Of a stretch of DNA of 64,000 nucleotides, positions 29,626-48,179 are shown piece by piece (positions within the stretch are counted from its first letter, which is position 1; the number at the start of each line of letters is the position of its first letter). Below the pieces are notes generated by a model. It ran no database searches. It saw only the letters and a program-made list of their open reading frames with translations, and had not been told where the DNA came from. Source of the DNA: Mycobacterium branderi. GTDB lineage: Bacteria > Actinomycetota > Actinomycetes > Mycobacteriales > Mycobacteriaceae. The stretch lies in assembly GCF_010728725.1 (NCBI RefSeq), contig NZ_AP022606.1:4712001-4776000 (forward strand), in the 5' to 3' direction. Position numbers and translations under genes: made by a program.

Positions 29626-30321
29626 GTGCGCCCCGACGACGAGCCTGGCGAGCTCACCCCCGTTGCCCAGGACTACCTGAAGGTCATCTGGAACGCCCAG
29701 GAGTGGTCGCCGGACAAGGTCAGCACCAAGATGCTGGCCGAGAAGATCGGGGTGTCGGCCAGCACCGCGTCGGAGTCCATCCGCAAACTCGCCGAGCAGG
29801 GTTTGGTCGACCACGAGAAGTACGGCGCGGTGACGCTGACGGAGTCCGGGCGCCGCGCGGCGCTGGCTATGGTGCGCCGGCACCGGCTGTTGGAGACCTT
29901 CCTGGTCAACGAACTCGGCTACAGCTGGGACGAGGTGCACGACGAGGCCGAAGTGCTCGAGCATGCGGTGTCTGACCGGCTGATCGCCCGCATCGAGGCC
30001 AAGCTGGGATACCCGCAACGTGATCCGCACGGCGACCCGATTCCCGCTTCCGACGGTCAGGTGCCCACCCCGCCGGCGCATCAGTTGTGGGCGTGCCGCG
30101 ACGGCGACGCGGCCACCGTGGCGCGGATCTCCGACGCCGATCCGGAGATGCTGCGCTACTTCGATTCCATCGGCATCAGCCTCGACTCACGGCTGCGGGT
30201 GCTCACCCGGCGCGAGTTCGCCGGGATGATGTCGGTGGCTGTCGAGTCGGACGATGGCGAATCCAGCAGGGTCGACTTGGGCAGCCCCGCCGCCTGCGCT
30301 ATCTGGGTGGTGGATTCCTAG
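29626..30321 (+). CDS. sirR: DtxR/MntR-family metalloregulator SirR
   Basis: A 231-residue iron- or manganese-dependent repressor. The winged helix is near residues 10-65 (QDYLKVIWNAQEWSPDKVSTKMLAEKIGVSASTASESIRKL), followed by the metal-binding dimerisation region (MVRRHRLLETFLVNELGYSWDEVHDEAEVLEHAVSD, with His, Glu and Asp ligands) and a C-terminal FeoA/SH3-like domain. Position beside ribF matches Rv2788. GTG start at 29626; two overlapping GTG codons just upstream are out of frame. Its 3' end overlaps the ferredoxin reductase gene by four bases. Confidence 0.93.
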   Translation: MRPDDEPGELTPVAQDYLKVIWNAQEWSPDKVSTKMLAEKIGVSASTASESIRKLAEQGLVDHEKYGAVTLTESGRRAALAMVRRHRLLETFLVNELGYSWDEVHDEAEVLEHAVSDRLIARIEAKLGYPQRDPHGDPIPASDGQVPTPPAHQLWACRDGDAATVARISDADPEMLRYFDSIGISLDSRLRVLTRREFAGMMSVAVESDDGESSRVDLGSPAACAIWVVDS

Positions 30322-33412: not shown

Positions 33413-34296
33413 CCAAGGAACCCGAATTTACGCCATAGCCAACGACTTACCGGATTGAGCAGTCCGTTCTCGTCGAGGAAGTCGTGCAGTCCTGCGAATG
33501 CCTCACGGTGCCGCGCGGCCACCAACTCGTTGTTGCGGGCTTGGCGCATCGCCTCCTTGACGTCGAGCCCGCACCTGGCATAGACGCGTTTGTCGTAGCA
33601 CATCCGGCGCAGGACGAAGCCGGCACCACCGTTGAGCGTCGCCGCGACGGCGCGCTCCCAGCGGGGGGCGCGCTGGATCCGGCGGCGCACACCCTCGCGC
33701 GCATAACGGATGTGACGGGCTTCCTCGACCACATGGATCCGCATGACCTGCGCGATGATCGGCTGTAAGTCCGGGTGCCGTAAGTACTTTCGCTGCGCAT
33801 CGTCGAGGAACTCCTCACCGCACAATGCCGCTACCCACAGCATCAGGCCCCGATACACCAGTGGGAACAACTGCACCGCCAGCGCCTCGGTCCAGGAGAG
33901 CCGATAGGGCTTGGCGCCGATCGCAGCTACTGCGCGTCCGAACATGACCATGTGCCGGGTCTCGTCGCCGAGTTCAGTGAGCGCGTAATGAACATGCCGC
34001 GATGTCGGGTCCTGGTGCAGCATCACCATCAACAGGCCCTGGTTGAGGGTGTTTTCGAACCACACCGCGCGGCTGAGCAAGTTCGCCACTTCCTGCCGAG
34101 ACAGCTCCACCCGTTGCCGATGCGTCATCTGCTCCCACATCGGTGTGCCGTACAGCGAGATCATCTCCGGCGGCATGTAGAACAGGTCCGGATCCTGCGG
34201 CGCGTCCCAATCCACGTCGACCAGCGAATTGAACGAGCGACGCAGCGAACCCCCGATCAACCGTTCAGCCACCTCGTCGTGAGCATTGATCGTCAT
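33409..34296 (-). CDS. AurF-like di-iron oxygenase
   Basis: A 295-residue protein of the AurF (p-aminobenzoate N-oxygenase) family of non-haem di-iron enzymes. All seven expected ligands can be placed: E81, E112 and H115 (DETRH), E161 (GEEFLDD), H188, E192 and H195 (HVVEEARH), with the same spacing as AurF from E112 on. Family members oxidise amino groups or hydrocarbons using O2 and two electrons. First gene of a three-gene unit with the monooxygenase (four-base overlap) and the ferredoxin-reductase fusion. Divergent from a TetR gene. Confidence 0.88.
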   Translation of the reverse strand: MTINAHDEVAERLIGGSLRRSFNSLVDVDWDAPQDPDLFYMPPEMISLYGTPMWEQMTHRQRVELSRQEVANLLSRAVWFENTLNQGLLMVMLHQDPTSRHVHYALTELGDETRHMVMFGRAVAAIGAKPYRLSWTEALAVQLFPLVYRGLMLWVAALCGEEFLDDAQRKYLRHPDLQPIIAQVMRIHVVEEARHIRYAREGVRRRIQRAPRWERAVAATLNGGAGFVLRRMCYDKRVYARCGLDVKEAMRQARNNELVAARHREAFAGLHDFLDENGLLNPVSRWLWRKFGFLG

Positions 34297-34343
34297 AGAG
34301 AGAACAATAGACAGTTTTAGTCTTTTCGTCTACCTTTATTGTT
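34297..34343. promoter_or_regulatory. Divergent AT-rich promoter/operator between AurF-like and TetR genes
   Basis: A 47-base region much richer in A and T than its surroundings. It contains AACAATAGAC (34303-34312) and the mirrored GTCTAC...TATTGTT (34329-34343), an inverted pair spanning an inner TTTTAGTCTTTT. One TetR dimer site here could control both genes. Exact half-sites are not certain. Confidence 0.45.
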
Positions 34344-34964
34344 GTGCTTGTGAGTCGAGCGCGGACGGCTCGGGCCGACGAGCGGGCGACCGATACCCGC
34401 AGCCGCATCATGGATGCGCTGTTGCCGCTGGCGGCACTGACCGGGCTGCGCAAACTATCGATGGACGAGGTGGCGCGCTACGCCAAGGTCGGGCGCGCGA
34501 CGCTGTACAAGTACTTCCCCGGTCGCGATGCACTCATCGCCGCTTTCGTCCAACAGGAACTGGCACGGTTTTTCGCCGATGTCGGGCACATTGTCGAGCG
34601 CTACGACGATCCCGACGAGCGGCTCATTCACAGCTTTGCGCATGCCTACCGCTACCTGCGCTATCACCCGGCACTGTCCACGATCCTGCGGGTGAACCCC
34701 CAGATTTTGTTGCCCTATGTTATTACCGAGGCCAGCGAGGCGTTAGACCTTGGCCGCCAGTTTGTCGAATCAACAGTGGGCGCCGACGAATTGCCCGATC
34801 CGGAGCGTGCGCAGTTCGGCGAACACGTCGCCCGGGCGATCCACACGCTGATCCTCATCCCGTCCAGCGTCATGGGCCTCGACGCACCCGACGGTCCGGA
34901 GAACTACGCGCGGCGGTTCCTCGTACCAGTCAAAAACAGCCTGGCGGCAACGCTTCCGGCCTAA
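34344..34964 (+). CDS. TetR-family regulator, divergent from AurF-like operon
   Basis: A 206-residue TetR protein. The helix-turn-helix is RKLSMDEVARYAKVGRATLYKYF at about residues 35-58, followed by the usual PGRDALIAAFV recognition-helix extension. The C-terminal domain (YRYLRYHPALSTILRVNPQILLPYV) is unlike those of the other TetR proteins here. GTG start at 34344; a second GTG two codons later is possible. Divergent position suggests it represses the AurF-monooxygenase-ferredoxin genes. It is convergent with the SDR-monooxygenase fusion gene. Confidence 0.9.
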   Translation: MLVSRARTARADERATDTRSRIMDALLPLAALTGLRKLSMDEVARYAKVGRATLYKYFPGRDALIAAFVQQELARFFADVGHIVERYDDPDERLIHSFAHAYRYLRYHPALSTILRVNPQILLPYVITEASEALDLGRQFVESTVGADELPDPERAQFGEHVARAIHTLILIPSSVMGLDAPDGPENYARRFLVPVKNSLAATLPA

Positions 34965-34997: not shown

Positions 34998-37352
34998 CTA
35001 CACCGCTCCGATACGGGCAGTCCTCTCGTAGAAATCGGCCGGCCGCACCTCGGCGAGGTCACGGTTGAATCTGGCCATGGGCCACGGCCACAGCACGGGT
35101 TTGCCGTCAGGACCCAGATACCAACTGTCGCAACCGGTGGCCCACAACGTGTCCGGCAGTGCGTCGTCGACCTCGCGTAGAAACGCATCGGTGGCTTCGG
35201 CGCTCACCTCGACCTCGGCGAGGTTGCGGTCCCGCATCCGCCGCAGCCACGACACCACGTAGCGGGCCTGTGTCTCGGCGACCGGTACCAGCGATGAATT
35301 ACCGACGGGGCTGTGCGGACCCAGCATCAGAAACATATTCGGCAATCCGGGCACCGCGGTGGTGAGGTAGGCGTGCGGGCCGTTCGCCCAGGCGTCGTCC
35401 ATGGTGATGCCGTCGCGGCCGGTGAGTCGCATCGGCCGCATGTAGGCATGGGCGTCGAAACCGGTCGCCAGCACCAGCACGTCCAGCTGATGTACTTGCC
35501 CGTCGCTGGTTTGTACTCCATCGGGTCGGACATGATCGATCTTCTCGGTGGCGACATGCACGTTGTCTCGTTGCACGGCACGGTAGAAGCTGGGCGAGAA
35601 GATCAGCCGCTTGCAGCCCGGTTGGTAGTCGGGGGTCAGCGCGGCGCGAAGCTGGCGGTCGCCCACGGTCGCCAGGCTGCTACGGGACAGCCAGGCCATC
35701 GCGCGCCGCTGCCATCCGTTTTCGGTTGTCGCTTTGGCGAATTCGTCAAAGGCGTGCCGGATCGATTCGTAGAGCGCCGCATCCGTAAAGGGGACGTGAC
35801 GTAGCAGGGCTTTGACCACGCGCGGGATCGCGGGGTTGGGCACTGTGGCGACCCAGTGCGGGGTGCGCTGGAACAGCGTGATGAAGCCCGCGGTTTCGGC
35901 AAGTGCCGCGGTGATCTGGACGCCGGTCGAACCGGTGCCGATGACGCCGATGCGTGCTCCGGCGACCGGAACATCATGGTCCCATCGGGCGGAATGAAAG
36001 CACGGGCCGGCGAAGTCGTCCAACCCGGCGATGGCGGGGATCTTCGGGTGGTGCAGCACGCCGGTGGCGCATACCAAGACGTCGGCGGTGTGGGTCTCAC
36101 CGCTAGCCGTGCGCAGATGCCAACGGCTGTCTTTGAACTCGCCGTCGACGACCTCGGCGCCGAATCGGATGTGCGGGGTCAGGCGGCGCTCCTGCACGAC
36201 CCGCTGCAGGTATGCGGAAATCTCCTCTGCGGGCGAAAAGAGGTGGCTCCAGTCGGGATTGGGCAGTTCGCGATACGTGTAGTAGTGCGACGGCACGTCA
36301 CAGGTAAGGCCGGGATAGGTGTTCTCGCGCCAGGTGCCGCCGATACGATCGGCCTTTTCCAAAATCGTGAAGTTGGCCGCGCCGGCGTCCTGGAGGGCCA
36401 GCGCCATCGCGATGCCGGAGATACCGGCACCGACGATGGCGACGCTGGGCAGCGGGTCGGGTGTGGTCGGCGCGAACCCCCTGCTGCGCAGCACATCGAG
36501 TGCACGTGGCGCAAAAATGTCCAGGACTTTGCCGACGACGCCGACGGGGTGACTGACCCGTGCCGGAGCGCGCCGGATGGCGTCGAGCACCATCTCGGCG
36601 CCCTGCGCGGCGGTCATAGCCGGCGCACGACGGTAGCTGTCCGTCGGGGCGATCATGTCGGTGCGCACCAGCGGCATATGGACGGTCGTCCATTTCACGT
36701 TGTCGGCGCGAGTCTCGGCCGCAACCGACCTGGTGAAGCTGTCCATCGCACCCTTGGACCCCAGGTACGCCGAAAAACGCGGCTGCGCACCGAATTCGGT
36801 GCCGGTGGTGGAGATGTTGACGACATGCCCACCCCCGGTGCGGCGCATCCGCTCGACGAGCGGGACCGTCAGTCGCACCATACCCAGGTAGTTGAGCCGC
36901 ATGACTCGCTCGAAATCGTGTAGCCGGTCGGCGCTTTCGGAGATTGTGCGGCGAATCGACCGGCCGGCGTTGTTGACAACTACATCCACCCCGCCGTGTT
37001 CGACGATGACGTCGCGGACCAACGTGGCCACCTGACCCTCGTCACTCAGGTCGGCCGGGTACGCGTAACCACGGCCACCGGCATTCTCGATCACGTCCAC
37101 CAGGTCGTCGAGCAGATCGGCTCGCCGCGCGACCAACAGCACCTCCGCGCCGGCTTGTGCCACCCGCAGCGCGACTTCACGGCCGATGCCGGCTGACGCG
37201 CCCGTGATCAGCACTCGCCGACCGGCCACCGCGGCGCGCAGTTCGGCGTCGGCGCTGCGACGCGCTGCCAGGCGGCCCAACCTGCGCAGGTGCACGCTCG
37301 GGTCCAACTCAGCCAGCGCCGCCCAGGTCAGCTCACCAAGAGAAGTAGACAT
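34998..37352 (-). CDS. SDR-Baeyer-Villiger monooxygenase fusion protein
   Basis: A 784-residue two-domain enzyme. Residues 1-290 are a short-chain dehydrogenase with TGASAGIG (50-57), NNAG (127-130), a Ser in NISTTG and YLGSK (Y196, K200). Residues 300-784 are a flavin monooxygenase with GAGISG (308-313), the BVMO fingerprint FAGPCFHSARW (447-457) and the NADPH loop GVIGTGSTGVQ. An alcohol could be oxidised to a ketone by one part and oxygenated to an ester by the other. It is the last gene of a ten-gene run and lies 21 bases after a TetR gene with a palindrome in between. Confidence 0.9.
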   Translation of the reverse strand: MSTSLGELTWAALAELDPSVHLRRLGRLAARRSADAELRAAVAGRRVLITGASAGIGREVALRVAQAGAEVLLVARRADLLDDLVDVIENAGGRGYAYPADLSDEGQVATLVRDVIVEHGGVDVVVNNAGRSIRRTISESADRLHDFERVMRLNYLGMVRLTVPLVERMRRTGGGHVVNISTTGTEFGAQPRFSAYLGSKGAMDSFTRSVAAETRADNVKWTTVHMPLVRTDMIAPTDSYRRAPAMTAAQGAEMVLDAIRRAPARVSHPVGVVGKVLDIFAPRALDVLRSRGFAPTTPDPLPSVAIVGAGISGIAMALALQDAGAANFTILEKADRIGGTWRENTYPGLTCDVPSHYYTYRELPNPDWSHLFSPAEEISAYLQRVVQERRLTPHIRFGAEVVDGEFKDSRWHLRTASGETHTADVLVCATGVLHHPKIPAIAGLDDFAGPCFHSARWDHDVPVAGARIGVIGTGSTGVQITAALAETAGFITLFQRTPHWVATVPNPAIPRVVKALLRHVPFTDAALYESIRHAFDEFAKATTENGWQRRAMAWLSRSSLATVGDRQLRAALTPDYQPGCKRLIFSPSFYRAVQRDNVHVATEKIDHVRPDGVQTSDGQVHQLDVLVLATGFDAHAYMRPMRLTGRDGITMDDAWANGPHAYLTTAVPGLPNMFLMLGPHSPVGNSSLVPVAETQARYVVSWLRRMRDRNLAEVEVSAEATDAFLREVDDALPDTLWATGCDSWYLGPDGKPVLWPWPMARFNRDLAEVRPADFYERTARIGAV

Positions 37353-37365
37353 CGTGTATACTTAA

Positions 37366-37381
37366 CTCGGTTCTCACCGAG
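37366..37381. promoter_or_regulatory. Palindrome upstream of SDR-monooxygenase fusion
   Basis: CTCGGT-TCTC-ACCGAG, two perfect 6-base arms, 14 bases upstream of the fusion gene ATG and overlapping the stop codon of the TetR gene. A GTATAC palindrome lies between it and the start. Probably the TetR operator for the fusion gene, though it could also act as an RNA hairpin. Confidence 0.45.
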
Positions 37382-37988
37382 AGGTCAAGCCCGCCAACCC
37401 GTTCCACATCACGTCGATGCTGATATCGACGAGCCGGTCGAGTTCCTCGGGCGTGGTGCTGGCCCAGTCCAGCCCTTCGGCGATCCGGGAACCGGCTCCG
37501 ACGAGCCCGCGCGCGATCAGTTCGGTAAGCGCAGGGTCCGCTGCGGGCGCTGCGCGCATCAGAGCGCGTGCGGCCGCGCGCTCGAGATCGTCGCGGATCG
37601 CCTCGGCTTCGGCGCGGGCTTTGGAGCCGCTGAAGGTGTCGTCGGCCAGAAAGATCAGGAACAGCCGCGAATGCTCGCCGATGAAACCCACGATGCGCCG
37701 GGCCGCGATGTGTATGGCCTCGAGCGGCTCGGGCACGCCGGTGTCGTCGCGGACCATCTCCTGCAATCGCCGACGCGACGCGGCCAGGCACGCCGCTGCA
37801 AGCTCGTCCTTGGAGGCGTAGTGGCGGTAGAGGATTGCCCGAGTCACGCCGGCGCGGCGCGCGATTTCGTTCATCGACGCGCCGTGAAAGCCGACGTCGA
37901 GGAACGTCGCCTCGGCCACTCGGCGCAAATCGGCGGCCCGGTCTGCGGGCCGCATCCGTCGGCGGCCGGCCGGCGTCGCGGAGGTCAC
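37374..37988 (-). CDS. TetR-family regulator within the catabolic run
   Basis: A 204-residue TetR protein from the GTG at 37988 (an ATG at 37955 is the alternative). The DNA-binding part is HGASMNEIARRAGVTRAILYRHYASKDELAAACL. The C-terminal part includes GFIGEHSRLFLIFLADDTFSG and an Ala-rich helix. It lies 19 bases downstream of the SDR gene and directly upstream of the SDR-monooxygenase fusion. The symmetric element in the gap to the fusion gene suggests it controls that gene and perhaps the whole run. Confidence 0.87.
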   Translation of the reverse strand: MTSATPAGRRRMRPADRAADLRRVAEATFLDVGFHGASMNEIARRAGVTRAILYRHYASKDELAAACLAASRRRLQEMVRDDTGVPEPLEAIHIAARRIVGFIGEHSRLFLIFLADDTFSGSKARAEAEAIRDDLERAAARALMRAAPAADPALTELIARGLVGAGSRIAEGLDWASTTPEELDRLVDISIDVMWNGLAGLTSR

Positions 37989-38007
37989 CGGCCACACGCT
38001 ACCGCGC

Positions 38008-38868
38008 TCAGGTACCCAGCTCGTTGATCCGGCGGTGGTACACGTCGCGTGCGTGCGGATCGACGTTGGTGAACGCAGTGTCGAAATGGGCCGCATGCGA
38101 GATCCGGTTTCGGGTGCGCTCGGGAATCAACGACATGGTTTTGATCATGGCGCCCAACGCCTTTGGCACGGTAACCCTCGCCCGCCGAGCGCCGACCGCG
38201 GTCACGATGGCTGCAGCGACATCGCCGGGGTCCACTTCCCCGATGGGCCGCAACCATGCCGGTGCACTGTGCCCGGCCGACAGCTCGGTGCGCACGATGC
38301 CGGGCAGCACCGCCGTGACGGCGATACCGGCGTCGGCGAGTTCCAGATGCAATGTCTCAGAGAAGCCGACGACGGCGTGTTTGGTCGCGCAATACGTCGC
38401 CAACCCGGGGTGACCGCTCACCCCGGCCAGCGATGCGACGTTGATGATGTGACCGCCGCGTCCGGTCAGTCGTTGGACCGCGAGTTTGGATCCGTTCAGC
38501 ACGCCACCCAAGTTGATGGCCACCATCCGGTCGGTCACCGCGTCGTCCTCGTCGGCGAACAACCCGGTGGGCATGATTCCGGCGTTGTTGACCAGCACAT
38601 CCAATGGCCCCAGCCGTGATTCGGCGTCGTCGAGGAAGGCGGCGAACGACTTTCGGCTCCTGACGTCCAGGCCCAGGCCGCACACCTGCCCGCCAGTTGT
38701 CTCGGCCAGCTCGGCCGCAGTCTTTTCCACCAGCTCGGTGTCGATGTCACCGAGCGCCACGTGAGCCCCGGCCCTTAAAAAGGCCTCCCCGGTGGCCCGC
38801 CCGATTCCCCGGGCGCCACCGGTGACGACGACGACCTTGTCGCGAAGATGGTTGTGGTTGTTCGTCAT
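38008..38868 (-). CDS. Short-chain dehydrogenase/reductase
   Basis: A 286-residue SDR with TGGARGIG near residues 16-23, NNAGIMP, Ser in NVASLAGVSG and YCATK. The C-terminal segment (GDVAAAIVTAVGARRARVTVPKALGAM) is usual in mycobacterial SDRs of the same subfamily as the N-terminal half of the fusion protein. It starts three bases after the acyl-CoA synthetase stop, so it is co-transcribed. An alcohol released by hydrolysis of the ester product may be its substrate; this is inference from context. Confidence 0.88.
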   Translation of the reverse strand: MTNNHNHLRDKVVVVTGGARGIGRATGEAFLRAGAHVALGDIDTELVEKTAAELAETTGGQVCGLGLDVRSRKSFAAFLDDAESRLGPLDVLVNNAGIMPTGLFADEDDAVTDRMVAINLGGVLNGSKLAVQRLTGRGGHIINVASLAGVSGHPGLATYCATKHAVVGFSETLHLELADAGIAVTAVLPGIVRTELSAGHSAPAWLRPIGEVDPGDVAAAIVTAVGARRARVTVPKALGAMIKTMSLIPERTRNRISHAAHFDTAFTNVDPHARDVYHRRINELGT

Positions 38869-38871
38869 TGG

Positions 38872-40671
38872 TCAGGCCTTTCGGATGTTGGCATAAAGCT
38901 GTTCGATCTCGGCGGCGTACTTGCCGGCGATGGGTTTGCGCTTGAGCTTGGCCGTCGGCGTCAGCTCGTCGCCGCCGGGCTGCCAAAACGTCGGTGCGAT
39001 ATGGAAGTACTTGATCTGCTCGACGCGCGAGAGCTTGGCGTTGGCGGAGTCGATCCCCGCTTGCACCGCGGCCCGCACGTCGGGGTGGATGGCCAACACG
39101 GCCGGCGATGCGTCGATGCCCAACTGCCGGGCGTACCTCGCGGCAGCGTCGGCGTCCAGGCTCACCAGCGCAACGATGCACGGCCGGTCGTCGCCGATGG
39201 CCACCACGGAACCGATCAGCGGACACGCCGCCCGGACATGGTTTTCGATATTGGACGGCGCGATGTTCTTGCCGCCCGAGTTGATGATCAACTCCTTCTT
39301 GCGGTCCACGATTCGCACATAGCCGTCCGCGTCGACGGTGCCGACATCGCCGGTGTGCATCCAGCCGTCGGCGTCGATGGCCTGCGCGGTCTTCTCTGGG
39401 TCGTTGCGATAGCCCTTCATCAGTCCGGGTCCGCGCACCAGCAGCTCACCGTCGTCGGCGACCCGAAGCTGCACGCCGGCAACGGGTTTGCCGACGGTAC
39501 CGACCCGGATACCGTCCGGTGGGTTGAGGGTGGCCACCGCCGACAGCTCCGACATTCCCCAGGCTTCGCATACCGGTAGGCCGAGGCCGAGAACGAATTC
39601 CAGTGTCTCCGCGGCGATCGGCGCGGCGCCCGACACCGCGATGCGTACCTGGTCGAGTCCGACCCTTGCCCGCAGCCGACGCAACACCAACTGCTCGGCG
39701 GCCGCGGCTTGCATGGCGATCCATGCCGACGGCCGCTCATTGCGGGTTTGCACCAGCGCCTTCTGGGCGCCGGCGGCGACCGCCCAGCGCGCCAGCGCGC
39801 CCTTGATACCGCGTTGCTCGGCCAGCCCGGCTTGTAGCGCGGCCTGGATCTTGTACCAGAACAGCGGCACCGCAGCAAAGATCGTCGGCCGGGCATCCGG
39901 TAAGGCGCTGACCAACGCCTTGTGGTCGGCCACCGTGGTCACCGATGCGCCGCTCACCGCCGGCGCATAGTGGGCCAGATACCGATTCACGATGTGGGCA
40001 TCCGGCAGATAGGACACCACCCGATCGTGCTCGTCGAAAACGACTAGATCCGCCAGCGCCGCGATATTCGTGAGCAGGTTACGGTGAGTGAGCTCAACGC
40101 CTTTGGGCGGGCCGGTGGTCCCCGAGGTGTAGATCAGGGTCAGCACGTCGTCGGGGCGCACCGCTAGCCAGGTGGCGTCGAAGTCGAACCCGGCGTCGCC
40201 GGCGGCCTCCAGCTCGTCTAACGTCAGCACGCCCGCCGGCTTGGCGTCCACGCATACGACGTGCTCGACCTTGGTGGCCGCCTTGGCTTCGGAAAGCACC
40301 GGCAAGAACTGCTGTTCGCAGACGACGACCCGGTTTTCGGCGTTGCCGAACAGGTAGTTGATCTGGTCGGCCGAACTGGTGTTGTACACCGAAAACGGAA
40401 TCGCACCAAGGTGGTAGGCGGCCGCATCGATCAAGTTGAACTCGGGTCGATTGGTCAGCATCAGCGCCACAGTGTCGCCCCGACGCACGCCGAGCGCGGC
40501 CAGTCCGGCCGTGATGCTGCGCACCCGTGTGGCGTATTGCGCCCAGGTGAGCGAGCCGCCCCGGCCTACAGCGCGGAGCGCGACGCGCTGTGGGTGAGCG
40601 GCCGCGGTGTCTTGGAACAATTGACAGATGCTGGTGGCGGAGCGCAACTCGGCTGGTGTTCGTGCTGGCAT
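38872..40671 (-). CDS. Long-chain acyl-CoA synthetase (FadD15-like)
   Basis: A 599-residue AMP-forming synthetase of the long form with a long insertion, as in FadD15 and eukaryotic-type long-chain ligases. Motifs: TLIYTSGTTGPPKGVELTH, SYLPDAHIVNR, CEAWGMSELSAVATLN, DGWMHTGDVGTVDADGY, RKKELIINSGGKNIAPSNIE and the final LTPTAKLKRKPIAGKY. It would activate an acid for entry to beta-oxidation. It lies 22 bases after the hydrolase gene. Confidence 0.9.
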   Translation of the reverse strand: MPARTPAELRSATSICQLFQDTAAAHPQRVALRAVGRGGSLTWAQYATRVRSITAGLAALGVRRGDTVALMLTNRPEFNLIDAAAYHLGAIPFSVYNTSSADQINYLFGNAENRVVVCEQQFLPVLSEAKAATKVEHVVCVDAKPAGVLTLDELEAAGDAGFDFDATWLAVRPDDVLTLIYTSGTTGPPKGVELTHRNLLTNIAALADLVVFDEHDRVVSYLPDAHIVNRYLAHYAPAVSGASVTTVADHKALVSALPDARPTIFAAVPLFWYKIQAALQAGLAEQRGIKGALARWAVAAGAQKALVQTRNERPSAWIAMQAAAAEQLVLRRLRARVGLDQVRIAVSGAAPIAAETLEFVLGLGLPVCEAWGMSELSAVATLNPPDGIRVGTVGKPVAGVQLRVADDGELLVRGPGLMKGYRNDPEKTAQAIDADGWMHTGDVGTVDADGYVRIVDRKKELIINSGGKNIAPSNIENHVRAACPLIGSVVAIGDDRPCIVALVSLDADAAARYARQLGIDASPAVLAIHPDVRAAVQAGIDSANAKLSRVEQIKYFHIAPTFWQPGGDELTPTAKLKRKPIAGKYAAEIEQLYANIRKA

Positions 40672-40693
40672 ACGATCGTGTCCTGTCTGTCGG

Positions 40694-41551
40694 TCATCCT
40701 GTGCTTGTGGCGTGATCGCCGCTGGTGTCCAGCAACGACGCGATCAGCCTGACCACCGAGGTGGGGTTGTCCAGTTGCGGGCAGTGCCCAGAGCGCGGGA
40801 GCACGACGAGTTCGCTGCCGGGAATCTGCTGGTGCAGCAGTCGGCTTGACTGCACGGGAATGATGCGGTCGCGGGCGCCGTGCACGATCACTGTCGGGCA
40901 ACTGACACGCACGCCGCGGTGTCCGGCAGTGGTTTCGTAGGCGTATTGAAATGCGTAGCGTCCCAAAGTGGCAACGTCCGAAACACAGGAGATTGTCTGC
41001 GACCAATACCTGACGACCTCGGGGTCGGCGACGATTCCGGGCCCGTACAGGAACTTTGGGACGATGCGACGAGTCGCCCAGCTCAACGCGGTCGACGGCA
41101 CGGGGGCATGGGCCACCCGTGACCAGAACGTGGCAGCTATCTCTCGTCGGCGAGCCACCCGGGCCAACCAGTGTCTGGCATTGAGCGGATCGTTCAGTGC
41201 GACAAGCGCTTTGACCGCCGCGGGGTTGTGGGCGGCGCCGCGGACCGCCGTCGCCGCGCCCAGCGAATTACCAACCAGCACTGCCGGTCCGGTTTCGGCG
41301 AGGATCGCGTCGAGGAACGCGTCGAACTGCGGCACCAGCGCTCCGGACCGGCGTGGGTCCGCCTGCCCGAAGCCGGGTAGGTCCACCGCAAACGCGCGTC
41401 GTCCCGCCGCCTCGAGCCGTGTCAGCACGCCCCGCCACGTATCGGCGCTGTCGGCATATCCGTGCAAAAGCACGATCGGCGTCCCGTTACCGACCACGGA
41501 TAGCGCTCGGGTGCCCACGTCGTTGTAGGTCACCCGGCTCGCAGTGATCAT
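40694..41551 (-). CDS. Alpha/beta hydrolase
   Basis: A 285-residue hydrolase. The oxyanion-hole motif LLHGYADS (28-35) and the nucleophile GNSLG (S96) are present, with the acid in HGARDRIIP and the histidine in SGHCPQLDNP near the C-terminus. The ATG overlaps the stop of the acyl-CoA dehydrogenase by four bases. In this setting it may cleave esters or lactones formed by the Baeyer-Villiger enzyme; that is inference. Confidence 0.88.
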   Translation of the reverse strand: MITASRVTYNDVGTRALSVVGNGTPIVLLHGYADSADTWRGVLTRLEAAGRRAFAVDLPGFGQADPRRSGALVPQFDAFLDAILAETGPAVLVGNSLGAATAVRGAAHNPAAVKALVALNDPLNARHWLARVARRREIAATFWSRVAHAPVPSTALSWATRRIVPKFLYGPGIVADPEVVRYWSQTISCVSDVATLGRYAFQYAYETTAGHRGVRVSCPTVIVHGARDRIIPVQSSRLLHQQIPGSELVVLPRSGHCPQLDNPTSVVRLIASLLDTSGDHATSTG

Positions 41552-42777
41552 GCGTTGAGCAGCCCCTTGGCGATGTGTGTCACCTGTACCTCATTGCTGC
41601 CGGCGTAGATCATCAGCGATTTGGCGTCGCGGGCCAGTTGTTCGACGCGGTACTCGGCCATGTAGCCGTTCCCGCCGAACAATTGGACTGCCTCCATCGC
41701 GATGTCGGTGGCGGCCTCCGACGAGTACAGCTTGATCGCCGACGCTTCGGCCAGCGAGGGCACCTTGCCGGCCTGCAGCTTCTCCAACGTCTGAAAGACC
41801 ATGTTCTGCACGTTGATCCGGGCGACCTCCATCTTGGCCAGCTTGAGCTGGATCAGTTGGAACTGCCCGATGGTCTGGCCCCACAGGGTGCGGGTTTTCG
41901 CGTAATCGACGCAGAGCCGGTGGCATTCGTTGATGATGCCGAGCGCCATCAGCGCCACACCTAACCGTTCGGCTGCGAAATTGGCGCGGGCGCTTTCCCG
42001 ACCGTCGCCTCCGGTGTGGTTTTCGGTCTCGCCCAGCAGCCGATCCGGTGTCAGGCGCACGTTGTCGAAGAACAACTCGCCGGTGGGCGACGACATCATG
42101 CCCATCTTCTTGAAGGGCTTGCCCTGCGTCAGTCCCGGCATTCCGGAGTCGAGGACGAAGGGCAGCACCGGCCGGTTGCGCCGATCGGGGTCACCATTGT
42201 CGAGCTTGGCGTAGACGATCAGGACATCGGCGTAGGGACCGTTGGTGATGAACGTCTTCTGCCCGTTGAGGATGTAGTCGGCGCCGTCGCGTTTGACGGT
42301 GGTCTTCATCCCGCCGAAGGCATCCGAGCCGGAGTCCGGCTCGGTGATGGCCCAGGCCGCGATCTTCTCGAGTGTCATCAGTTCGGGCAGCCAGCGTTCC
42401 TTCTGGGCGAGCGTGCCGCGGCTCATGATCGTGGCCGCGCCCAGACCCAGGCTGACGCCGATCGTGCTGAGCAATCCGATACTGACACCGGCAAGTTCGG
42501 ACACCAGGATGGCGGCCATCGACGCCTGCGCGGCAAGGCCGCCCAGCCCGTTCGACGGCTGCCGCTCGGCTTCCGCGGCGCGTTCTTTGTCCAGCATCGA
42601 CTTCACCGCCTCGGCGGCCAGCACGTCGAGACCGAACTCGCTGAACAGCTTGCGGGCGATCGGGTACGGCGACATCTCGCCGGTCTCCAGCGCATCCAGA
42701 TGCGGCCGGATCTCCTTGTCGATGAATCCCCGGACCGTATCCCGCATGATCAGGTCGGTGTCGGACCACTCGATCAT
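41548..42777 (-). CDS. Acyl-CoA dehydrogenase (possible FadE21)
   Basis: A 409-residue acyl-CoA dehydrogenase. FAD-binding elements are AWAITEPDSGSDAFGGMKTT, GQKTFITNGPYADVLIVYAK and LGLGAATIMSRG; RVEQLARDAKSLMIYAGSNEVQ at the C-terminus contains the usual AxxxxIYxGxxE catalytic/FAD region. M. tuberculosis has fadE21 (Rv2789c) between sirR and ltp1, so this may be its orthologue in an expanded locus. ATG at 42777 is preceded by a GAGGAGG site. Confidence 0.88.
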   Translation of the reverse strand: MIEWSDTDLIMRDTVRGFIDKEIRPHLDALETGEMSPYPIARKLFSEFGLDVLAAEAVKSMLDKERAAEAERQPSNGLGGLAAQASMAAILVSELAGVSIGLLSTIGVSLGLGAATIMSRGTLAQKERWLPELMTLEKIAAWAITEPDSGSDAFGGMKTTVKRDGADYILNGQKTFITNGPYADVLIVYAKLDNGDPDRRNRPVLPFVLDSGMPGLTQGKPFKKMGMMSSPTGELFFDNVRLTPDRLLGETENHTGGDGRESARANFAAERLGVALMALGIINECHRLCVDYAKTRTLWGQTIGQFQLIQLKLAKMEVARINVQNMVFQTLEKLQAGKVPSLAEASAIKLYSSEAATDIAMEAVQLFGGNGYMAEYRVEQLARDAKSLMIYAGSNEVQVTHIAKGLLNA

Positions 42778-42826
42778 GTTTATTCCGCCTCCTCCTCGTC
42801 GCTACGCTCCGCATCGTCGGCGGTGG

Positions 42827-43693
42827 CTATGGCAGCCTCGCCGCGATGTCGTCGATGAGCCACGGGCCGTCGGTCTCGATGGTCTCGACATCCTGCCAGC
42901 CCGCGAGTCGCGAAATCGCCCCGCCCTGAACGGCATACACGCGGCCGGTGATCGGGCACTTTTCCGTCGCCAGATAGGCCACCAGCGGCGAGATGTTGGC
43001 TGGGCTGAACAAGTCCAGCTCGCCGTCGTCGGGTTCGTCCATGAGCGCGCCCATCCCGGGAGTGGCCAAGGTGAGCCGGGTCCGTGCGATCGGCGCGATC
43101 GCGTTGACCCGCACACCGTATCGGTCCAGCTCCTCGGCGGCGATCAACGTCAGCGCCGCGATGCCCGCTTTGGCCGCGCCGTAGTTGGCCTGGCCCGGAT
43201 TAGGCAGCGTTACACCGGAACCCGACGCGGTGTTGATCACCGCGGCATTGGGCTGATCCCCCGCCTTCGACTGGGCCTTCCAGTAGGCGGCGGCATGCCG
43301 AAGCATCGCGAAGTGCCCTTTGAGATGCACGGCGATCACCGCGTCCCACTGGGCTTCGTCCATGCCGGCGATGAACGAGTCCCGCAAGATGCCGGCGTTG
43401 TTGACTAGCACATCGAGTCGCCCGAACTCGTCGATCGCCTGCCGCACAACGCTTTCCGCGCCATCCCAGGTGGCGATGTTCTCGGTGTTGGCGACGGCCG
43501 TGCCGCCGGCGGCGGTGATCTCGTCGACGACCTCGTGCGCCGGGCCGGCGTCGGCGCCTTCGCCGGTGTTGTCGCCTCCGAGGTCGTTGACGACGACCTT
43601 GGCGCCCTCCTTGGCGAACAGCAGCGCGTGTTCGCGCCCGATTCCCCGGCCGGCGCCGGTGATGACGGCTACCCGCCCTTCCAATGCACCCAT
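42827..43693 (-). CDS. SDR, 3-hydroxyacyl-CoA dehydrogenase-like (17-beta-HSD4 type)
   Basis: A 288-residue SDR with TGAGRGIGREHAL near residues 12-24, the NDLGGDNTGEGADAG insertion typical of the dehydrogenase half of multifunctional peroxisomal-type enzymes, NNAGILRDSF, Ser in NTASGSG and YGAAK. Such enzymes oxidise 3-hydroxyacyl-CoA. It is coupled by a one-base TGATG overlap to the MaoC hydratase, the usual partner. Confidence 0.9.
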   Translation of the reverse strand: MGALEGRVAVITGAGRGIGREHALLFAKEGAKVVVNDLGGDNTGEGADAGPAHEVVDEITAAGGTAVANTENIATWDGAESVVRQAIDEFGRLDVLVNNAGILRDSFIAGMDEAQWDAVIAVHLKGHFAMLRHAAAYWKAQSKAGDQPNAAVINTASGSGVTLPNPGQANYGAAKAGIAALTLIAAEELDRYGVRVNAIAPIARTRLTLATPGMGALMDEPDDGELDLFSPANISPLVAYLATEKCPITGRVYAVQGGAISRLAGWQDVETIETDGPWLIDDIAARLP

Positions 43694-44559
43694 CAGCGTG
43701 TCTCCCTGATCTCCGCCAGCCCGTCGGTGATGACGAAGTCGTCACCGCGTGCCGTCTCGAATGCGTAACTGGTGATTCCGTCCGCGTGGCCCTTCTCCCA
43801 GATCCGCGTCTCCAGGTCGTCGCCCGGCAGCACCGGCTTGGAGAACCGCACCGCGAACCGCTTGAGCCGGTTGACATCCGAGTCGGCCAGTTCGGTGAGC
43901 ACCGCCCACGAGGTGAACGCCATGGTGCACAACCCGTGCGCGATGATGCCGGGCAGCCCGGCGTCCTTGGCCACCTCCTCGTCGAGGTGAATCGGCATCG
44001 GGTCGCCGGCTGCCGGGGCGTAACGGAACGTCTGGTCGGCGTCGATGTGCTGCACCACCTTGGCGGCGGGCGCCTTCGAGCGCAGCGCGTCGTCGAACTT
44101 GTGGTCGGGGCTCAAAACCCCAACGGCACGGCCCACGGTCAGTCCGCGCACGAACGTGGTGACGTACTGCTCGTTGACCAGTTCGCCGTCCTCGGTGCGG
44201 CATTCCAGCAGGATCGCCGCGCGGGTGCCTTTCTCCAGGCCCTGGTATCCGATCATCTTGGCACGGGATACCAGCTTGTCACCCGGGCGGATCGGCCGGT
44301 GGAAATGAAAATCCTGTTCCCCGTGCACGATTCGCGGGATCGCCTCGACGGGCATGACATCGACCGCCGGGGTCAGCAGCGCCTCGAACACAGGCACGAT
44401 CGCGAACACCGGCGGCGCGACATCCCCTCTGCGGTGCGCCTCGATCGGATCGTTGGTCGCCGCCGCGTATTCCGCCAACCGCTCCCGGGTAACCTCGAAT
44501 CGCTCGTCGTCGGTCCAGCGATCAAGGCCGGTGTCGTCGAACTCGAGTGTTTCCGTCAT
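43693..44559 (-). CDS. MaoC-family enoyl-CoA hydratase
   Basis: A 288-residue double hot-dog hydratase. The hydratase 2 motif is in AGDPMPIHLDEEVAKDAGLP (D186, H191), followed by IIAHGLCTMAF; the first hot-dog repeat is about residues 20-145. It would add water to a 2-enoyl-CoA. It overlaps the SRPBCC gene by four bases and the SDR by one, so hydratase and dehydrogenase are made together. Confidence 0.9.
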   Translation of the reverse strand: MTETLEFDDTGLDRWTDDERFEVTRERLAEYAAATNDPIEAHRRGDVAPPVFAIVPVFEALLTPAVDVMPVEAIPRIVHGEQDFHFHRPIRPGDKLVSRAKMIGYQGLEKGTRAAILLECRTEDGELVNEQYVTTFVRGLTVGRAVGVLSPDHKFDDALRSKAPAAKVVQHIDADQTFRYAPAAGDPMPIHLDEEVAKDAGLPGIIAHGLCTMAFTSWAVLTELADSDVNRLKRFAVRFSKPVLPGDDLETRIWEKGHADGITSYAFETARGDDFVITDGLAEIRETR

Positions 44560-44993
44560 GAGGCCGTGGCCAAAACATCGAGCTGGTCGAGCGTCTTGTC
44601 GAGCTGCTTGGCGCCGTCCTTTTCCACGGCCTTGCCCAGCGCGCCCTTGATCATGGCACCCTCGAAATCACCGCGGACGGTGAATTTGGAGCCGGCTCCG
44701 TCTGGCTCGATGGTGAAGGTGAATTGCGCCTTGACACCGGCCATTCCGGTGCCGCTGAGCACCAGGCCGCGCGGCGGGTCGACCGATTCGACCGTCCACT
44801 CGATCTTGTTGGCCATCCCGAGCATGACGATTTTGGCGGTCAGCTTTGCGCCTTCGCTGAGCGTGGCAGGCGGTTCCTCCAGCCATTTCTCGTGCACGGT
44901 GAACCACTTGTCCCAGTTGGCCAGGTCGCTGACGGTTTCCCACAGCGCCTCGGGGCCGGCACTCAGTTCCCGGGTTGCCTCGATGTGTCCCAT
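44556..44993 (-). CDS. SRPBCC family protein (Rv0910-like)
   Basis: A 145-residue helix-grip protein starting GHIEATRELSAGPEALWETVSDLANWDKWFTVHEKW. The C-terminal half has strand KAQFTFTIEPDGAGSKFTVRGDFEG and a long final helix with ALGKAVEKDGAKQLDKTLDQL. Proteins of this kind are found beside lipid genes or as the toxin of Rv0909-Rv0910-like pairs; no antitoxin lies here, so a ligand carrier role is more likely. It begins two bases after the thiolase stop. Confidence 0.8.
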   Translation of the reverse strand: MGHIEATRELSAGPEALWETVSDLANWDKWFTVHEKWLEEPPATLSEGAKLTAKIVMLGMANKIEWTVESVDPPRGLVLSGTGMAGVKAQFTFTIEPDGAGSKFTVRGDFEGAMIKGALGKAVEKDGAKQLDKTLDQLDVLATAS

Positions 44994-44995
44994 GA

Positions 44996-46186
44996 TTAAC
45001 GCTCCGCTCGTTGGTAGGCGGTGACGACGGCGGCGCCACCGAGTCCGATGTTGTGCTGCAGGGCCGCCGTGACCCCGTCGACCTGGCGCTTGTCCGCGAG
45101 ACCCCGTAACTGCCAGGTCAGTTCGGCACACTGCGCCAAGCCTGTTGCGCCCAGCGGATGACCCTTGGAAATCAGGCCGCCGGACGGGTTGACCACCCAG
45201 CGCCCGCCGTAGGTGGTGTCGCCGTTGTCGATCAGCTTGGGCGCTTCGCCTGGGCCGCACAGGCCGAGGGCCTCATAGAGCAGCAGCTCGTTGGCGGAGA
45301 AGCAGTCGTGCAGCTCGATCACCTGGAAGTCCTCCGGGCCCAGGCCGGATTGGTCGTAGACGCGTTGCGCCGCTTGCACGTTCATGTGGTAGCCGACCAG
45401 CGCCTTGCAAGTGCCGTCGAACGTTGACTCGAAGTCGGTGGTCATTGCCTGCCCGACGATCTCCACGGCCTGGCCGGCCAGCCCGTGCTTGTCGACGAAC
45501 TGTTCGCTGGCCAGGATCGCGGCTCCCGAGCCGTCGGAGGTGGGCGAACACTGCAGCTTGGTCAGCGGGTCGTAGATCATCCGCGAGCCCAGGATGTCCT
45601 CCAGGGTGTAGGAGTCCTGGAACTGCGCGAACGGGTTGTTGACCGAGTGCTTGTGGTTCTTGTAGCCGATCTTGGCGAAATGCTCTGCGGTGCTGCCGTA
45701 CTGGCGCATGTGCTCGCGACCGGCGGCGCCGAACATCCACGGCGCCGGCGGAAACAAGACCTCGGAGATCTCGGCCATCGCGAGGATGTGCTTTTCCATC
45801 GGCTGCGCGCGGTCGTCGTAGCTGGCCTCTAGCGATCCGGGCTTCATTTTTTCAAACCCGAGTGCGATGGTGCAGTCGGCGAGCCCGCCTCGAATCGCCT
45901 GGGCGGCCAGGAAAAGCGCCGTCGAGCCGGTCGAGCAGTTGTTGTTGACGTTGACGACCGGAATCCCGGTCATGCCCAGCTCGTAAAGAGCACGCTGCCC
46001 CGACGTCGACTCGCCGTAGACGTAGCCGACGTAACCCTGCTCGACGTCGCTGTAGCTGATGCCGGCGTCCTGTAGCGCGTTGGTGCCGGATTCGCGCGCC
46101 ATGTCCGGGTAGTCCCAGCCTTCCCGGCGCCCCGGTTTCTCGAACTTCGTCATCCCCACACCGACGACGTAGACCTTGTTTGCCAT
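44996..46186 (-). CDS. Thiolase/lipid-transfer protein (Ltp type), second copy
   Basis: A 396-residue thiolase-superfamily protein of the Ltp (SCP2-thiolase-like) group. The reactive Cys is in [14 protein letters not shown] (C84); [10 protein letters not shown] and [15 protein letters not shown] carry the His residues. It lacks the CxG-type second catalytic cysteine of classical thiolases, so it may be an aldolase/retro-aldolase-like or sterol-side-chain type enzyme. Most residues are identical to the neighbouring ltp1 product. First gene of the minus-strand catabolic run; TetR is upstream. Confidence 0.92.
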
Positions 46187-46207
46187 CGCCCTCCCATCGG
46201 ACTGTTT

Positions 46208-46227
46208 TCCGAAACATACATTCCGGA
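46208..46227. promoter_or_regulatory. Imperfect palindrome upstream of thiolase copy 2
   Basis: TCCGAAACATACATTCCGGA, two 8-base arms with six matches around ATAC, 22 bases upstream of the thiolase ATG and downstream of the TetR gene. Plausible operator of the adjacent TetR regulator, marking the start of the run's transcription. Confidence 0.4.
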
Positions 46228-46275
46228 TGGCATCTTTACAAGTCAGCGCCAACGCAAACGGCTCGTTCGCAGTGC

Positions 46276-46914
46276 TTAAGCGCCCGGCTGAACTGAGAGC
46301 AGCTGGCTCAGCTCGTTGCGGAGATGAGCGCAGGCGCGATCCCATCGACGGCGCGCCCGGGCGATGTCCTGATCGACGAAGCTGGCCACCAGAATGCCGC
46401 GCAGAGCATCCATCGCCGTATAGATGAGGTAGCGCAGTTCCTTTTGCGCTGCTTGCTCTGGAAGGAACTGCGCAATCGCGGAGAACAGCGTGTCGTTGAC
46501 CAGCGGTTCGACGCGCTGGATCTGCTGCGCGAGCACTCGGTCCGTTCGGGATGCCACCCAAAGTTCGAGCGTGGCAACAAAAAGCGGGCCCTGATGCGCG
46601 TCCCAAATGAAATCCAGCACCTTGGCGGGATCGGGCCTGCCCTTGACGCGGCTCAGCTCGCGAATGGCCGCGTGCGCCCGCTGCTGAGCCAGGTGCTCGA
46701 TCGCGGCGACCACCAGATCTTGCTTCGACCGGAAGTGGTGGATCTGCGCGCCGCGGGTCACGCCGGCCAGCTCCGCGACGCGGTGCGTGGTCGTGCCGGC
46801 ATACCCGTAGGTGACCAGGCATTCGACCGTCGCCTCGAGCAACCGCGACCGCATGGCAGCACTGCGCTCGGCCTGTGAGCGTCGCGCGCGCGATCCGTCC
46901 GTCCGCGTGGTCAC
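46276..46914 (-). CDS. TetR-family regulator between the two thiolase genes
   Basis: A 212-residue TetR protein. The helix-turn-helix is in [32 protein letters not shown] (about residues 41-72). The family to which it belongs commonly controls fatty acid or steroid beta-oxidation genes. Its own promoter should lie in 46915-46982, and an imperfect palindrome sits in the gap to the downstream thiolase. Ligand unknown. Confidence 0.9.
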
Positions 46915-46982
46915 GCCGACATCTTACCCATATACATGCCGATGAGAATGGAAGTGCTGGCGCCGTTGACGTTGCTGTCGCG

Positions 46983-48179
46983 TCACCGTTCGGCGCGCTG
47001 GTAGGCGGTGACGACGGCCGCTCCCCCGAGCCCGATGTTGTGCTGCAGCGCGGCGGTCACGTTGTCGACCTGACGCTTGTCGGCGGTACCGCGCAGCTGC
47101 CAGGTCAGCTCGGCGCACTGCGCCAAACCGGTTGCGCCCAGCGGGTGGCCCTTGGAGATCAGCCCGCCGGACGGGTTGACCACCCAGCGGCCGCCGTAGG
47201 TGGTGTCGCCGTTGTCGATCAGCTTGGGCGCCTCACCCTCGCCGCACAGCCCGAGAGCCTCATAGAGCAGCAGCTCGTTGGCGGAAAAGCAGTCGTGCAG
47301 CTCGATCACCTGAAAATCGGTCGGCCCGAGACCGGACTGCTCGTAAACGCGTTGCGCGGCTTGAACATTCATGTCGTAGCCGATGAGATTTTTCGCCGTG
47401 CCGTCGAAGGTCGACGCGAAGTCGGTGGTCATCGCCTGGCCGACAATCTCGGTCGCCTGGCCGGCCAGCCCGTGCTTGTCGACGAACTTCTCGCTGGCCA
47501 GGATCGCCGCGCCCGACCCGTCCGAGGTGGGCGAACACTGCAGTTTCGTCAGCGGATCGGAGATCATCCGCGCCGCCAGGATGTCGTCGAGCGTGTAGGG
47601 CTCCTGGAACTGCGCGAACGGGTTGTTGACCGAGTGCTTGTGGTTCTTGTAGCCGATCTTGGCGAAATGCTCTGCGGTGCTGCCGTATTGGCGCATGTGC
47701 TCGCGACCGGCGGCGCCGAACATCCACGGTGCGACGGGCATCGCGAACTCGTCGATCTCCGCCATCGCCTTCACGTGCCGCGCCATCGGCGATTCGCGGT
47801 CCTGCGCACCGCCGCCCAGCGAGCCGGGCTGCATCTTCTCGAAGCCCAGCGCGATCGTGCAGTCGGCGAGCCCGCCGCGGATGGCCTGCGCAGCCAGAAA
47901 AAGCGCCGTCGAGCCCGTCGAGCAGTTGTTGTTGACGTTGACAATCGGAATCCCGGTCATGCCCAGCTCGTAAAGCGCCCGCTGCCCGGACGTCGAATCG
48001 CCGGCGACATAGCCGACATAGCCCTGCTCAACTTCGCGGTAGTCGATGCCCGCGTCTTCGAGCGCCTTGGTGCCGGACTCCCGCGCCATGTCGGGATAGT
48101 CCCAGTTTTCCCGGCGGCCCGGCTTCTCGAACTTCGTCATGCCGACGCCGACGACGTAAACCTTGTTTGTCATCGGCAT
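46983..48179 (-). CDS. ltp1: Thiolase/lipid-transfer protein Ltp1
   Basis: A 398-residue Ltp-type thiolase. Reactive Cys in NNNCSTGST (about C86), [10 protein letters not shown] and [10 protein letters not shown] as in its paralogue. Adjacent to truB, as ltp1 (Rv2790c) is in M. tuberculosis, and the sequence agrees with that protein over the [11 protein letters not shown] segment, where the paralogue differs, so this copy is the orthologue. The start could be 48179 or the ATG two codons later. Likely role is the last step of side-chain or branched-acid degradation. Confidence 0.93.

Follow-up and report, generated by a model that had tools for sequence, protein, structure and literature searches.

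A candidate two-layer catabolic operon with peroxisome-like core enzymes and a natural dehydrogenase-monooxygenase fusion in Mycobacterium branderi

Introduction

Does a tightly packed run of ten genes in Mycobacterium branderi encode one catabolic pathway, and for what kind of substrate? The run lies on the minus strand of a 64,000-nucleotide stretch (hereafter the window, C1:4712001-4776000; the genome totals 5.98 Mb on 2 contigs). It opens with an SCP2-type thiolase, LtpB, and closes with a single polypeptide that joins a short-chain dehydrogenase/reductase (SDR) to a Baeyer-Villiger monooxygenase (BVMO). The original prediction, made from the sequence alone, read these genes as an operon that would convert a ketone or ester to acyl-CoA and degrade it by one complete beta-oxidation cycle. 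We examined gene content, active-site motifs, conservation in the genus, upstream elements and known systems. The reading that we tentatively favour, at a little under even chances, is a two-layer catabolic operon, in which a branched alcohol or ketone would pass through ester and acid to acyl-CoA and then enter peroxisome-like beta-oxidation.

Results

Gene content and packing of the operon

Gene identities were taken from Pfam and NCBIfam profile scans together with the translations (Table 1). These confirmed the ten predicted genes, all on one strand, in the order thiolase, SRPBCC protein, MaoC hydratase, 17-beta-HSD4-like SDR, FadE, alpha/beta hydrolase, FadD11-like ligase, second SDR (SDR2), regulator TetR_B and SDR-BVMO fusion. 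The intergenic gaps from thiolase to fusion are 2, -4, -1, 49, -4, 22, 3, 10 and 21 bases, the gap of 10 between SDR2 and TetR_B assuming that TetR_B starts at 37997. Three overlapping joints were measured, at 4, 1 and 4 bases. Both the predicted domain calls and the operon-like packing are therefore supported, and the ten genes would form a single transcript. The predicted gene list was incomplete at its upstream end, where it left out the likely regulator TetR_A, 89 bases upstream of LtpB, and another thiolase, LtpA.

Core enzymes of peroxisomal type

The complete beta-oxidation cycle that had been proposed is supported by the enzyme content, with three enzymes of peroxisomal type: SCP2-thiolase, R-specific MaoC hydratase and 17-beta-HSD4-like dehydrogenase. 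We read the core in this way because the closest solved relatives of the three are an SCP2-thiolase and both parts of multifunctional enzyme type 2 (MFE-2). LtpB matches SCP2-thiolase type 1 (6hsj) at 574.6 bits, the next family reaching 214 bits, and carries the Cys/His active-site motifs, HNIGLGG among them. The best solved relative of MaoC is the MFE-2 hydratase 1s9c, and its motif GDPMPIH retains Asp and His. Among solved structures the 17-beta-HSD4-like SDR matches the (3R)-hydroxyacyl-CoA dehydrogenase 2et6 best (307 bits), with 17-beta-HSD4 itself (1zbq, 1gz6) further down. The two MFE-2 halves are separate genes here, overlapping by 1 base, rather than one chain. FadE carries Ala at the usual site of the base, which is the Glu of IYEGTNE in the two solved proteins nearest to it; its own probable base is the Glu of AAERLG (268-273), at the helix position, where both of those proteins have Gly. 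We take this swap to be the isovaleryl-/long-chain acyl-CoA dehydrogenase type of active site.

The SRPBCC gene scores above the NCBIfam cut-off for 'type II toxin-antitoxin system Rv0910 family toxin' (170.4 versus 100). This name is probably misleading, because the gene is a constant member of the beta-oxidation operon, second in the core in all 18 related regions described below, and is flanked by enzymes.

Conservation of the core in the genus

A search with MaoC at E 1e-60 matched 23 of 118 genus genomes, including that of the window. Twenty regions were fetched, and 18 of them (L117-L134) are operon-type, each from a different one of the 22 matching non-window genomes; of the remaining four genomes, two carry clusters of other types (G299, L161; G295, L162), G327 was covered at its second match alone (L135), and G311 was left out. 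The order Ltp-SRPBCC-MaoC-SDR-FadE is complete and on one strand in 17 of the 18 regions, L131 lacking FadE, and given this recurrence the gene order is more than chance. Relatives of TetR_A (65-76% identical) occur upstream of the core in 15 regions, in L133 with a BVMO gene in between; the relative in a further core region, L157, is 60% identical. Besides the copy upstream of Ltp, a second TetR_A-like gene (56-67%) was seen in L122, L123, L125, L126 and L127.

Upstream of the core lies an imperfect palindrome at 46212-46241, TTGNNNAGATRC-N10-GTATGTTT, with the arms AAGATAC and GTATGTT. Of 19 upstream regions (window included), 17 contain it with 3 mismatches or fewer and 12 have it exactly, the two weaker regions, L131 and L134, having 5 and 8 mismatches; a reversed-pattern control over the same regions gave 6-8 mismatches. 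Since the pattern was derived from these very regions, the counts show conservation and not independent prediction. The window genome has 1 exact copy and 4 further places with 3 mismatches, against 1 match for the reversed control. We infer that this element is a candidate operator paired with TetR_A. Read as a sigma-70 promoter, it has 8 of 12 consensus bases by hand count, although a strict scan misses it.

The SDR-BVMO fusion

A single open frame, uninterrupted by stop codons, encodes the fusion. Its BVMO half contains GAGISG at 308, the type I BVMO fingerprint FAGPCFHSARWD at 447-458 (FxGxxxHxxxW at 447-457) and GTGSTG at 472, and the SDR half contains GASAGIG at 51. We aligned the window fusion with 15 of 26 SDR-BVMO homologues. 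Residues D352, F447, G449, H453, W457 and R582 (in CKRL from 580) of the BVMO half are invariant over these 16 proteins, R582 and D352 presumably being the equivalents of the catalytic Arg337 and of Asp66 in phenylacetone monooxygenase (PAMO). The same holds in the SDR half for N127, S181, Y196 and K200, the residues of a classical SDR, and for the Arg pair R76/R77, which we take to indicate a preference for NADP. The Rossmann glycines are invariant as well. A structure model of the fusion has mean pLDDT 76.9 and pTM 0.77; its BVMO part matches the folds of cyclohexanone monooxygenase (CHMO), PAMO and steroid monooxygenase (STMO), with TM-scores by target of 0.68-0.76 among the 50 matches listed.

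Among the best 120 homologues listed, 26 are full-length SDR-BVMO fusions, those named coming from mycobacteria, Mycobacteroides, Gordonia, a Marmoricola metagenome-assembled genome (MAG) and Psychrobacter. The closest among the matches listed, from a Mycolicibacter algericus MAG, is 82% identical. The same 120 also hold 12 fusions of an alpha/beta hydrolase with a BVMO (PF07859 with PF00743; P0047, P0063, P0066 and nine others), which would put the making and the cleaving of an ester in one chain.

At E <=1e-200, 4 of 396 genus genomes matched, with three fusions (the window's own and those of G327 and G527) and an unfused BVMO in G331. The distance from a MaoC relative to the start of the fusion that follows it is 11 kb in G327 and 14 kb in G527. 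Ltp, SRPBCC and a relative of the hydrolase (34-35%) occupy the interval, and the clusters also hold a double acyl-CoA dehydrogenase, an aldehyde dehydrogenase (ALDH) and a CaiB-family gene. The CaiB protein of G327 is closest to alpha-methylacyl-CoA racemase (AMACR) 1x74 (377 bits), and that of G527 is 82% identical to it. Racemase, SCP2-thiolase and MFE-2 together make up the peroxisomal set for 2-methyl-branched acyl-CoAs, and a racemase-like gene beside relatives of the other two is the strongest hint to the substrate class.

None of the best 80 of 594 loci from a scan of genome contigs passed a fused SDR-BVMO test, a result uninformative on close relatives. A looser look at 15 of these 80 loci found an SDR-like segment apart from the BVMO in 11 and no such segment in L067, L079 and L085, while in L011 one match spans both parts of the fusion though the open frame covers only part. 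No place covering 80% of the fusion occurs in 186 plasmid records. A family draw (1 of 251, E 1e-250) and an order draw (1 of 397, E 1e-190) returned only the window itself, with few candidates per genome scored and at E-values out of reach for more distant fusions. A search of the mostly open-access literature, judged largely by titles and abstracts, turned up no description of a natural SDR-BVMO fusion; the natural fusion in PMC6165268 is a styrene monooxygenase with its reductase.

The variable tail

The genes that follow the core vary much more. They were recounted over the 18 regions by tblastn at E 1e-15. A hydrolase of the window's type (61-67% identical) is present in 8 regions; L118 has another type, which served as query and weakly matched L119 and L121. 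The window's own enzyme has its Ser in GNSLG, plus Asp and His motifs. SDR2 relatives (44-69%) occur in 12 regions, an acyl-CoA synthetase (ACS) of non-FadD11 type (at least 58%) in 10, one of which is the query, ALDH (at least 56%) in 6, again including one query, and cytochrome P450 (at least 56%) in 4, two of them queries. No match to the FadD11-type ligase, TetR_B or the SDR half was kept in any region.

A BVMO accompanies the core in five of the 18 regions: L118, L121, L129 and L133 were matched by the BVMO half of the fusion (378-680 bits), L134 only by the second BVMO of the window (159 bits). At matched thresholds, the count of 4 in 18 compares with about 1 expected from 17 other BVMOs (at least 200 bits) in the window genome (binomial P ~0.015), a rough control, since the species are related and BVMO density comes from one genome.

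Relative to its nearest relative, L117, the window is 94-95% identical in the core and 86-97% in pptT, truB, sirR and ribF, whereas TetR_A reaches 74%, SDR2 69% and the hydrolase 62%, and the ligase is of a different type. Because hydrolase and SDR2 are far more diverged than core and flanks and the ligase type differs, the tail has likely been exchanged, and its junction with the core may be recent. The best relative of the window's FadD11-like ligase (68%) is in G381, where it directly follows a core (L157).

Two Ltp genes at one site

LtpA and LtpB are tandem SCP2-type thiolases (44996-48179) separated by a TetR gene; they are 89% identical, and the next paralogue in the genome is 39% identical. 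Ltp was found at E 1e-190 in 105 of 118 genomes. Sixteen loci with Ltp and no operon were read; in 10 of them the gene sits between truB and ribF, and in 8 of those 10 FadE is its neighbour, presumably the ltp1-fadE21 pair that M. tuberculosis gene numbers place between truB and sirR. This pair shares the site of the window operon but lacks SRPBCC, MaoC, SDR and the operator element. MaoC, SDR and the element are absent from all 16 loci, where the element pattern has at least 6 mismatches at each. At the eight truB-Ltp-FadE loci Ltp is 87-93% identical to that of the window, and FadE is 81-85% identical in 7 of 8, the FadE of L179 being in three pieces (64-93%).

The lone Ltp at this site in L178 shares 96% identity with LtpA, pointing to LtpA as the resident gene and to LtpB as one that arrived with the operon. 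A clean split along these lines failed, as 4 of the 10 operon-free Ltps at the truB locus are nearer LtpA and 6 nearer LtpB. We also dropped the idea that ltp1-fadE21 is a decayed remnant of the operon: the pair (8 of 16 loci) has neither the candidate operator nor MaoC or SDR, and in genome G317 the pair occupies the truB site (L177) and an operon-type region lies at another place (L131). An origin of the operon by expansion or import at this site is no less likely.

Neighbouring genes

The whole stretch is bounded by pptT/truB on one side and sirR/ribF on the other. Downstream of the fusion, the space up to sirR/ribF is filled by TetR_C, an AurF-type oxygenase, a second BVMO (BVMO2) and a reductase (30318-34964). 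Relatives of AurF, BVMO2 and the reductase (69, 38 and 49% identical) stand beside the core in L134 only, where a TetR_C relative is also present.

Table 1. Features of the M. branderi locus, in window coordinates
Feature	Position	Strand	Basis
LtpA, SCP2-type thiolase adjoining truB	46983..48179	-	Pfam thiolase
TetR_A, likely operon regulator	46276..46914	-	PF00440
Inverted-repeat element, candidate operator over promoter	46212..46241	-	alignment of upstream regions
LtpB, SCP2-thiolase type-1 homologue, predicted thiolytic step	44996..46186	-	6hsj, 574.6 bits
SRPBCC protein, probable acyl/lipid-binding helper	44556..44993	-	PF10604
MaoC double-hotdog enoyl-CoA hydratase 2 (predicted)	43693..44559	-	1s9c, 84 bits
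17-beta-HSD4-like SDR, predicted (3R)-hydroxyacyl-CoA dehydrogenase	42827..43693	-	PRK07791, 447 bits (cut-off 373)
FadE acyl-CoA dehydrogenase	41548..42777	-	profile scan, motifs
Alpha/beta hydrolase, candidate ester hydrolase	40694..41551	-	PF00561/PF12697
FadD11-like acyl-CoA ligase	38872..40671	-	NF038343, 771.5 bits, under cut-off 950
SDR2, probable NAD-type alcohol dehydrogenase	38008..38868	-	PRK07825, 334 (cut-off 287)
TetR_B	37374..~37997	-	PF00440; start uncertain: 37997 GTG, 37988 GTG or 37955 ATG
SDR-BVMO natural fusion, 784 aa	34998..37352	-	profiles, alignment, structure model
TetR_C, divergent from AurF	34344..34964	+	PF00440
AurF-type diiron oxygenase, candidate hydroxylase	33409..34296	-	PF11583, 304 bits
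Second BVMO with DUF4873	31622..33412	-	fingerprint FSGTQFHSSQW
Ferredoxin/pyridine-nucleotide reductase, candidate electron donor to AurF	30318..31709	-	profile scan

Discussion

Proposed pathway

We infer each reaction from family and motif; the order of steps, the NADP loop and the substrate are proposals. In the upper layer, a secondary alcohol, perhaps made by AurF with the reductase or by another hydroxylase, would be oxidised to the ketone by the SDR half of the fusion, yielding NADPH that the BVMO half would spend with O2 in turning the ketone into an ester. The alpha/beta hydrolase would cleave the ester to acid and alcohol, SDR2 would begin the oxidation of the alcohol half, and the FadD11-like ligase would activate the acid for the core. 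In the lower layer, presumably controlled by TetR_A at its element, FadE would form the 2-enoyl-CoA, MaoC would hydrate it to the (3R)-hydroxyacyl-CoA, the 17-beta-HSD4-like SDR would oxidise this with NAD, and LtpB would cleave the product with CoA, in one cycle or more. Our best guess at the substrate is a methyl-branched isoprenoid or side-chain-like alcohol or ketone; in animals the D-bifunctional-protein/SCPx route serves 2-methyl-branched and sterol-side-chain acyl-CoAs. The original prediction lists no enzyme to supply the alcohol at the head of the route, a role that AurF in the window or, in relatives, the P450s might fill.

The two-layer reading is supported by the recurrence of BVMO, P450, ALDH, ACS, hydrolase and SDR2 in the tails. 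A bolder version, which we regard as possible but doubtful, sees in the fusion a natural redox-neutral enzyme that would take branched secondary alcohols or ketones from alcohol to ester on one polypeptide and feed, as an exchangeable unit, an AMACR/MFE-2/SCPx-like route.

Several points weigh against the two-layer operon. A strict sigma-70 scan found 0 promoters (shuffles 1.3), and terminator-like sites are as frequent as in shuffles (7 versus 7.7). The similarity of MaoC to MFE-2 is modest at 84 bits. In the fusion, the spacing of Ser and Tyr in the SDR half is 15, an unusual value for a classical SDR, where it is 13; a neighbouring Thr may take the role of the Ser. The clusters of G327 and G527 probably represent one lineage and so are not independent. 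An engineered SDR lost its SDR activity when a BVMO was attached at its C-terminus (PMC5624969), so the SDR half of the present fusion may lack activity or play another part. The tail has diverged from core and flanks, and the BVMO enrichment is modest, at P ~0.015-0.02, the higher value from a looser count with L134 and about 30 BVMO-like genes, and 0.09 in the least favourable count. The weakest joint of the mechanism is that of tail to core, because 13 of 18 core regions show no BVMO match. With a BVMO that is not constant and a tail that looks exchanged, a single pathway across the ten genes is a proposal.

Alternative readings

The same evidence bears on a reading in which core and tail serve different substrates: the core would be a self-standing branched-acid operon, into which a FadD11-TetR_B-fusion block run by TetR_B would have been recombined. 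The core regions without a BVMO, the divergence of the tail and the position of TetR_B immediately before the fusion all favour it. However, gaps are short throughout the operon, 4-5 of the 18 core regions hold a BVMO too, the core of L157 has a FadD11-type ligase immediately behind it, and the fusion also lies beside an Ltp/MaoC cluster in G327 and G527. On balance we consider separate substrates rather unlikely, though a serious contender.

An improbable reading is that the locus encodes a second route for the side chains of sterols or bile acids, alongside the known cluster under KstR control, in which the BVMO would attack a keto-steroid. It would agree with the action of SCP2-thiolase and MFE-2 relatives on animal sterol side chains, with the presence of STMO among the BVMO relatives, and with an MlaD/Mce-type gene at the locus in one relative. 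That gene adjoins the core (L121:13879-15045) and is a hint of uptake of a lipid-like substrate. Against a sterol role, CHMO and PAMO outscore STMO among those relatives, the element seems unlike the KstR operator, and no DUF35 partner is found among the ten operon genes or in TetR_A. The HBC operon atf1-chsH4-chsE6-kstR3 (PMC10398937) is similar in having a stand-alone SCP-x-type gene, an acyl-CoA dehydrogenase and a TetR away from the sterol cluster. It differs in its aldolase with a DUF35 partner, and in the accessible text of the same source no SDR or BVMO belongs to it.

The mymA operon joins a BVMO, a lipase-like hydrolase, dehydrogenases and FadD13, and carries genes for a zinc alcohol dehydrogenase (ADH; adhD) and an acyltransferase (tgs4); it resembles our locus in bringing BVMO, hydrolase, SDR and FadD together in a mycobacterium, and differs in having no beta-oxidation core. 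That ours is likewise an envelope-lipid operon, whose flavoenzyme and ligase would modify or recycle envelope acids in keeping with the role of mymA in envelope lipids (PMC9044951), is very improbable given its complete thiolytic beta-oxidation core and the absence from its ten genes of both zinc ADH and acyltransferase families in the Pfam/NCBIfam scans.

Relation to known systems

For the two-layer operon, the nearest known counterpart of the core is peroxisomal branched-chain and bile-acid beta-oxidation, which consists of AMACR, ACOX2, MFE-2/D-bifunctional protein and SCPx. SCP2-thiolase, hydratase 2 and (3R)-hydroxyacyl-CoA dehydrogenase are shared as the closest solved relatives, and the G327 cluster adds a racemase-like gene. 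In contrast, the mycobacterial MFE-2 parts are separate, FadE stands in place of an oxidase, and neither an SCP2 domain nor a racemase is found among the ten operon genes.

The upper layer follows the ADH, BVMO and esterase logic of the cyclohexanol (chnABC) and Gordonia acetone pathways. Long-chain alkanes are likewise degraded in T. oleivorans from secondary alcohol to ketone, ester, and acid plus alcohol (PMC6304351). Unlike in these pathways, ADH and BVMO here form one polypeptide, and the locus adds a dedicated core for beta-oxidation. Engineered ADH-CHMO fusions follow the same redox-closed alcohol-to-ester logic (PMC5624969), whereas the present fusion is natural and has its SDR at the N-terminus, an arrangement that did not work with the single SDR tried there.

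The statement in the original prediction that no described pathway has this set was too strong as regards the chemistry, for the route from alcohol to ketone, ester and acid is textbook knowledge; our search of the mostly open-access literature, judged largely by titles and abstracts, turned up no description of this combination or of the operon. The kinds of enzyme and the chemical logic are known, while the combination of the fusion with a split-MFE-2/SCPx operon is unusual.

Biological meaning

The locus ties vaguely named mycobacterial 'lipid' genes (Ltp, FadE, SRPBCC, MaoC and SDR) into a conserved unit with a candidate operator and peroxisome-like chemistry. It also gives a context to the Ltp-FadE pair found at 8 of 16 operon-free Ltp loci. 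The natural fusion is a self-contained version of designs made for biocatalysis, in the orientation that failed for the engineered SDR of PMC5624969. What BVMOs do in the physiology of mycobacteria has, according to PMC9044951, been little explored, and the window genome alone has 19 strong BVMO matches (at least 200 bits); the cluster makes the role of one of these enzymes directly testable.

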